From: Sphingopyxis flava | GTDB lineage: Bacteria > Pseudomonadota > Alphaproteobacteria > Sphingomonadales > Sphingomonadaceae | Assembly (NCBI RefSeq): GCF_900168005.1 | Contig: NZ_FUYP01000010.1 | Coordinates: 1-64,000 of the forward strand | DNA length: 64,000 nt | Direction of reading: 5' to 3' | Part shown: in pieces, positions 31,634 through 33,042 of the stretch | How the letters are laid out: every line of letters starts with the position of its first letter | How positions within the stretch are numbered: the first letter of the stretch is position 1 | The notes under the pieces: generated by a model | Seen by the model: only the letters and a program-made list of their open reading frames with translations | Told to the model about the DNA's origin: nothing | The model's database searches: none | Made by a program: the position numbers and the translations under genes

Positions 31634-32020
31634 GTGACAGACTATTGGCCTTTGGAACTGGCGGCCCTTGAGGCGATCGGGACAGAGTCTGCCGAATGGG
31701 CAGCGATTGTCGATCAGCTTTCCAAGCGCGGTAAGGTGCGTTCACGGGACAACACAGGTGGCGGGTTCTTCGTGGAGATAGATCCTGGGCCCGGTGGCAC
31801 TGAGATTGCCCGGAAACGTCAGGTCTCTCAGAAAGATGTGTGGCTCGGCGTCGAGCGGCTGGATCACGGCCTCGGGATTATCCTTCATCTGAATGGTGAT
31901 GGCATAGCACTATTAGAGGGGTATGCGGTCGGTCTCGAGGACACATTGAAGATCGATTTTGAGCGAGCCCGCTTTGAAGTCACTAACAAGCCCGGACCGC
32001 TAGCAACGAACGACAGCTAA
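31634..32020 (+). CDS. hypothetical protein, AT-richer than its surroundings
   Basis: 128 residues from a GTG at 31634; the upstream ribosome site is weak. It has no signal peptide and no membrane helix. There is a glycine-rich turn R-D-N-T-G-G-G-F-F near residue 38 and an acidic, folded-looking remainder with alternating strands. The size and acidity would suit an immunity or accessory protein, but I recognise no family. It ends 17 bp from the 3' end of the group II intron relic, which lies on the other strand. Confidence 0.55.
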   Translation: MTDYWPLELAALEAIGTESAEWAAIVDQLSKRGKVRSRDNTGGGFFVEIDPGPGGTEIARKRQVSQKDVWLGVERLDHGLGIILHLNGDGIALLEGYAVGLEDTLKIDFERARFEVTNKPGPLATNDS

Positions 32021-32037
32021 CCACCCCAAAGCAGCCA

Positions 32038-32294
32038 ATCGAGTAGGAGGAATCCTCGCCCCCCCACACCACCGGGCATACGGGCCTCGTGCCACGGCGG
32101 TTTCCGGCCTGTTGTAACGCGGTGTAATGGCCGACAAGGCTGACAAGGCCAAGTCGGTCGAACCATGCGAGGTTCATGGCTTCGGCAGCCGGGGGCCCCG
32201 CCTCACGTTGACGCAGTTGTTTTTGGCTAGCGGTTCCGTTCAGCGGCCCGCAGAGGACTTACACCTCCAGTCATCAACGCCATGCCTGGCACAC
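32038..32294 (-). mobile_element. ORF-less relic of a group II intron (group IIC type)
   Basis: Read on the minus strand, the element starts at 32294 with GTGTG, the group II 5' consensus (GUGYG), and then has domain I wording (CTGGAGGTGTAAGTCC). Domain V is present as a 34-nt hairpin (32068-32101): arms ACCGCCG and CGGTGGT, a 2-nt bulge on the 3' strand and a short upper stem. A domain VI-like hairpin ends at CTCGAT (32038). Length is 257 nt against about 2 kb for an intact element, so most of domains I-IV and the reverse transcriptase are gone. It sits just behind the rplA terminator, the usual target of group IIC introns. Confidence 0.72.
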
Positions 32295-32296
32295 AG

Positions 32297-32326
32297 AAAA
32301 GGGCCGGAATTTCCCCCGGCCCTTCC
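32297..32326 (-). terminator. rplK-rplA terminator
   Basis: On the minus strand AAGGGCCGG pairs with CCGGCCCTT, with TTTTCT after it. It stands 21 bp behind the rplA stop and directly in front of the intron relic's first base. Confidence 0.85.
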
Positions 32327-32346
32327 CTATAACCTATGCGCGTCGA

Positions 32347-33042
32347 TCAGGCGCCGATTTCGGCGGTGTCGACCTTCACGCCCGGCCCCATCGACGACGA
32401 CAGCGCGATCTTGCGGACATATTTGCCCTTCGCACCGGCGGGCTTCGCCTTGACGATCGCATCGACGAACGCGTCGAAGTTCTGGCGGAGCTTTTCCTCG
32501 CCGAACGACAGCTTGCCGAGGCCAGCGTGGATGATGCCTGCCTTTTCGACGCGGAATTCGATCTGACCGCCCTTGGCCGCCTTCACGGCTTCAGCCACGT
32601 TCGGAGTCACGGTGCCAAGCTTCGGGTTCGGCATCAGGCCCTTGGGGCCGAGCGTCTTGCCGAGACGGCCGACGATGCCCATCATGTCCGGCGTCGCAAT
32701 GACGCGGCCATAGTCGAGATTGCCCGCGAGCATGTCTTCCATCAGGTCTTCAGCGCCCACCTTGTCGGCGCCGGCGGCCAGCGCCTTCTCGGCATTGTCG
32801 CCGCGCGCGAACACGGCAACTTTGACGTCCTTGCCGGTACCGGCAGGCAGCGTGACGACGCCGCGGACCATCTGGTCGGCGTGGCGCGGATCGACACCAA
32901 GGTTCATCGCGATTTCGAGCGTCTCGTCGAACTTGGCCGAGGCCAGCTCGCGAACGGTCTTCAGCGCCTCGTCCACGCTGTGGAGCTTGAGGCTGTCAAC
33001 CTTGCCCTCGAGGGCCTTCTGCTTCTTGGTCAGCTTAGCCAT
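32347..33042 (-). CDS. rplA: 50S ribosomal protein L1
   Basis: 231 residues, usual L1 length. The signatures [16 protein letters not shown] and [16 protein letters not shown] are present. L1 forms the mobile stalk that clears deacylated tRNA and, in many bacteria, represses its own operon. It starts 4 bp after rplK. In the usual layout rplJ would follow; here the intron relic and accessory genes do. Confidence 0.98.

Follow-up and report, generated by a model that had tools for sequence, protein, structure and literature searches.

Behind the terminator of the ribosomal protein gene rplA, this Sphingopyxis genome carries a 257-nt copy of a group II intron (positions 32294 to 32038, minus strand, of the window, i.e., the whole 64,000-nt stretch of DNA analysed here) in which 99 nt from the start of an intron are joined to 158 nt from its end. 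Judged by sequence comparison, the element is well supported as an internally deleted relic that has kept both ends and lacks a reverse transcriptase (RT). The reading we favor, with a probability of about 95%, is that a full-length intron resembling those of class C (IIC) inserted past the rplA terminator and was then internally deleted and eroded to an inert remnant. Of domains I-IV nothing is left beyond the opening 99 nt and the tail of domain IV, and for this reason we regard the element as a relic and not as a working intron. A relic of this length with both ends and without RT had been proposed in a preliminary description from the letters alone; its parts are found where that description placed them (Table 1), and they are homologous to introns of S. 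bauzanensis and to a complete intron, L052, of the alphaproteobacterium G635.

Table 1. Features of the relic and its surroundings, in window coordinates
Feature	Position	Strand	Basis
rplA intrinsic terminator (stem-loop and T-run), insertion target	32295..32330	-	fold; genus-wide matches
Intron 5' end, GTGTG and first 99 nt (start of domain I)	32196..32294	-	alignment to S. bauzanensis intron and L052
Deletion junction	32195..32196	-	alignments of both sides; position count; blastn map
Remnant of RT/maturase C-terminal tail, 36 codons	32088..32195	-	tblastn
Domain V, 34 nt, 2-nt bulge, weakened upper stem	32068..32101	-	model R1, fold, alignment
Eroded domain VI and 3' end CTCGAT	32038..32067	-	alignment; L052 ends alike
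Spurious 64-codon frame	31983..32177	-	same frame as RT tail

Both ends agree with the group II consensus (5' GUGYG, 3' AY, as given in the part of PMC4028801 available to us). The 5' end, GTGTGCCAGGCATGG, opens with GTGTG at 32294 on the minus strand, immediately past the T-run of the rplA terminator; the 3' end, CTCGAT, closes at 32038, and its last bases are identical to those of L052. The domain I sequence noticed earlier behind the GTGTG start is borne out by alignment, as nucleotides 1-99 of the relic agree with the 5' end of an S. bauzanensis intron in 88 of 100 columns (88%) and with L052 in 84 of 102. Three matches to this 5' part, in two other Sphingopyxis genomes, have E-values from 5.5e-29 to 2.2e-28. 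From position 99 or 100 of the relic onwards, the similarity passes to the 3' end of an S. bauzanensis intron (131/170 columns identical, 77%). This 3' part holds the end of the RT gene, domain V and domain VI. The RT tail comprises 36 residues with 67% identity to residues 295-330 of a 330 amino acid S. bauzanensis RT piece (tblastn, E 3.7e-9 among the loci compared).

The loss between the two parts can be read from L052. Its 1,911 nt include ~1,645 nt (~86%), at about intron positions 101-1745, that are absent from the relic, and the 3' part of the relic starts at the equivalent of position 1746. This size is approximate because the reference comes from another genome and has only 82% identity with the relic over the 5' part, falling to 72% at the 3' end (blastn map). 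The D1D4 regions of Rfam, present in L052, are not detected in the window by curated or relaxed searches. The proposal of an internal-deletion derivative without RT and without most of domains I-IV thus stands, with the 36-codon tail remaining.

L052 lies behind a hairpin with a T-run and encodes an RT of 471 amino acids whose stop codon sits within domain V. This RT scores above the cut-offs of TIGR04416 and of Pfam RVT_1 and GIIM. Its best match in the PDB is the GsI-IIC RT (6ar1; 466.9 bits, residues 48-463), followed by 7uim (311 bits), 5hhl (266.8 bits) and 5hhj (266.5 bits). Class C is the most likely class of the relic; the RT side of this assignment comes from the PDB match of its relative L052, since the relic itself retains just 36 codons. 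The similar introns expected in Sphingomonadales do exist, although of the copies seen in S. bauzanensis the one on contig C11 is interrupted by an insertion and those on C21, C24 and C28 lie near contig ends; the complete intron is the one from G635. The insertion in the C11 copy is presumably an IS21-type element. In both L022 (978-1050) and L052 (2476-2548) the RT coding sequence enters domain V, where stop codon and catalytic hairpin overlap.

Domain V of the relic starts exactly at 32101 on the minus strand. It retains the lower helix and, on the 3' side, a bulge of 2 nt, while the upper stem is predicted to be shortened relative to relatives. Rfam at curated cut-offs gives no match in the window. 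A relaxed search with the group II model RF00029 places 19.2 bits at the right position, against a cut-off of 40. The same model gives an intact S. bauzanensis domain V, in two copies, 31.7 bits, also below threshold, lists nothing for L052 up to E 0.5, and scores two other relatives at 51 and 45.2 bits. The Rfam score therefore cannot decide here, because intact S. bauzanensis copies and L052 fall short as well. We built a DV-DVI family model, R1, from ten relatives, with the relic and a second copy from the same genome (see below) excluded: of 13 loci scanned for ends, 11 matched and ten were used (L056 gave no match, L070 was not among the matches, and L023 duplicates L022). In 114,227 bases from nine sources, R1 finds the relic at 32102-32038 with 49.5 bits (E 1.6e-9) and the second copy with 52.7 bits; its best score outside these two is 11.7 bits. 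The 34-nt domain V is thereby confirmed, with the shorter upper stem, and the covariance check suggested for it has a divided outcome, short of the Rfam cut-off and clear with R1.

Domain VI is less well preserved. The domain VI-like stem described earlier does end in CTCGAT, as L052 does, but it is eroded, with nucleotides missing from its 5' arm in the alignment with relatives. Domains V and VI together fold with a z-score of -1.46, and 18 of 200 shuffles fold equally well. The second copy has a corresponding z-score of -2.04, and three intact relatives reach -5.76, -7.53 and -5.53.

The position of the relic fits a class C intron. Such introns typically insert just past intrinsic terminators, according to the sections of PMC8919778 and PMC4424553 at our disposal, and the relic lies directly 3' of one. 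The rplA gene (minus strand; product matching Pfam Ribosomal_L1) ends at 32347, and the terminator region 32294-32330 folds with -25.6 kcal/mol (z -4.47). The end of rplA is matched in 76 of 80 genomes of the genus, our own included, and by the query ranges listed 73 of the 76 matches reach the terminator. We inspected the site in 30 of the 76 matched genomes (L079-L107 and L077), and in all 30 the element is absent within 600 nt of the terminator. In 26 of the 30 loci the match to the rplA end finishes with TTTTCT, as it does here. At L077 (G023), 26 nt identical to those 3' of the relic lie ~10 nt past the T-run. We read L077 as an empty site because it holds the very 26 nt that follow the relic; as ~10 further nt separate its T-run from the shared stretch, it does not fix the exact target bases.

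The other members of the family have similar surroundings. All 11 of the 5' ends examined (eight of the 12 named-genome loci of a pattern scan, the relic, the second copy and L052) lie behind a predicted hairpin; L042 and L044, not intron-like by inspection, and L041 and L047, which resemble more distant group II 5' ends, were excluded from the count. Compared with 500 random 45-mers drawn from its own source, the hairpin surpasses 448 or more of them in stability in ten of the 11 cases, and the one at L046 is no better than random (298/500, with only 202/500 weaker). A clear T-run is missing at L040, L048, L050 and L051.

Three further observations concern the neighborhood of the relic. The alphaproteobacterial small RNA ar35 has a weak Rfam match at 32292-32398 (minus strand; 20.8 bits, cut-off 45), across the end of rplA and the terminator, which is probably just the terminator. 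On the other side, a convergent frame (31634-32020, plus strand; no Pfam match) ends 18 nt from the relic. Among 79 other genomes of the genus, just three have a match along most of this frame (96%, 90% and 69%), and its homologues in L073, L074 and L075 lie elsewhere than behind rplA; it is perhaps a gene that changes location. Finally, GCTTTGGGGTGGTTAGCTGTCGTTCGT (32008-32034, minus strand) recurs, in whole or in most part, in differing settings in the Sphingopyxis loci L073, L074, L076 and L077, but a pattern of it with two mismatches occurs in only two of 21 genomes, once in each. It is perhaps a small dispersed repeat.

The history that we propose would run as follows. In this lineage of Sphingopyxis, a class C-like intron of ~1.9 kb would have inserted past the rplA terminator, presumably by retromobility, with its RNA and RT acting as a complex on the terminator hairpin. 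Later, ~1,645 nt would have been lost from the interior, probably in one step rather than several, which joined intron nucleotide ~99 to the RT tail; domains II-III, the greater part of domains I and IV and nearly the whole RT gene would have gone with them. Domains V and VI may then have been worn down by point changes and a small deletion. What is left would now persist as neutral DNA between rplA and the convergent frame, where it would neither splice nor move; that it does nothing at all is the most likely state of affairs.

A second copy of the family lies in the same genome behind the terminator of another ribosomal protein gene, rpsD, identified by Pfam Ribosomal_S4 and S4. It is 402 nt long (G000, contig C36, 23400-23801; minus strand of L013, 2901-3302) and is identical to the relic in 48 of 51 columns at the 5' end and in 124 of 149 over the 3' part. 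Unlike the relic, it has two other deletions, with a different 5' deletion, and keeps a segment of domains I-IV (RF01998, 53.9 bits). One of its deletion junctions shows GGCAGC microhomology. The 3' deletion breakpoints of the two copies lie within ~5 nt of each other. It is tempting to suppose that both descend from a single ORF-deleted IIC intron, trans-mobilised by an RT since lost, and decayed separately. If so, the near-identical 3' breakpoint would be the trace of an ORF-less ancestor; a deletion hot spot might instead have produced it, and we consider common descent from such an ancestor unlikely.

More improbable still is that the relic is itself a working ORF-less intron, or a MITE-like derivative, that an intron protein splices or mobilises in trans. 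It does retain both ends and domain V, and the two copies with their neighboring 3' breakpoints could be taken as the products of such an element. However, their 5' deletions differ, domains V-VI are decaying, and the relic has lost domains II-III and the bulk of domain I, with D1D4 not found. A group II intron in this state would lack exon-binding and core structure. Nor has a helper been found: DNA, profile and protein searches of the draft assembly (119 contigs) yield no RT of the relic's family, and a search of this genome with the family RT gives no match at E 1e-60. A DNA search of the genome returns, besides the two copies, nothing but short, weak matches, within the bounds of a draft in 119 contigs, which may miss an intact copy. 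Matches to RVT_1 in the genome lie in two RT frames, both remote from the relic's family (31-43% identity in the aligned stretches). These are group II-type RTs of 505 and 642 amino acids, at L037 (contig C55) and L038 (contig C52), the latter scoring just below the TIGR04416 cut-off. With its core gone and no related RT found in the draft assembly, the relic differs from a functional ORF-less intron on both counts, and, having no RT, it could hardly move. As to a small mobile element, its distribution does not support one. The relic as query has matches in three of 99 relatives, the second copy in three of 80 genomes of the genus, and the 5' pattern in one of 396 genomes of the order, our own genome being counted each time. 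Among plasmid records, 19 match the relic in part and nine the second copy, and none extends over 80% of either.

The preliminary description had also warned that a 64-codon minus-strand frame covering part of the relic could be misread as a gene, which is well founded. The frame (31983-32177) is open and has an ATG start, and these two properties are what a small protein gene would have to recommend it. It shares its reading frame with the RT tail, crosses domains V-VI and then passes the end of the intron. The RT stop codon, a TAG inside domain V of L022 and L052, is altered in the relic, and because this stop is lost the frame runs on to 31983. Since it represents an RT tail continued past a lost stop, with no match in Pfam or NCBIfam, we rejected it as a gene and consider that reading highly improbable. 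The chance of a fortuitous resemblance produced by GC-rich hairpins near a terminator, for which the Rfam score under the cut-off might speak, is practically nil, being refuted already by the matches of R1 (E 1.6e-9), of the 5' part (E ~1e-28, in two other Sphingopyxis genomes) and of the RT tail (E 3.7e-9), with all matching parts in the correct order and on the correct strand.

The remnant thus offers a clear case of a class C-like intron that appears to have decayed in place past a terminator, with relatives empty at the same site. Because Rfam cut-offs miss both the relic and an intact S. bauzanensis domain V, remnants of this kind can go unannotated or be called small genes. Our literature search on group II introns in Sphingopyxis returned nothing relevant, and one on internal deletions returned nothing. 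Working ORF-less group II introns are described as rare in bacteria and as nearly always residing in genomes with a related RT-bearing intron, in those passages of PMC4424553 that we could draw on. The relic resembles the introns described there in having no intron-encoded protein and differs from them in that it lacks the ribozyme core and that no related RT was found in its genome. Its closest counterparts are the class C-like introns of S. bauzanensis DSM 22271 and L052. They share with it the same kind of 5' and 3' ends, the same variant of domain V, the insertion behind hairpins and an RT tail (...NRRGT) that ends inside domain V. Unlike them, the relic is without RT, has lost ~86% of the intron, and is eroded in domains V-VI. 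Of an RT such as that of the group II intron GsI-IIC (PDB 6ar1), it holds only 36 tail codons. In bacteria the majority of group II intron copies are truncated, as stated in the accessible portion of PMC4028801. Such relics are common, and by its sequence ours belongs with these truncated copies, as ordinary genome debris.
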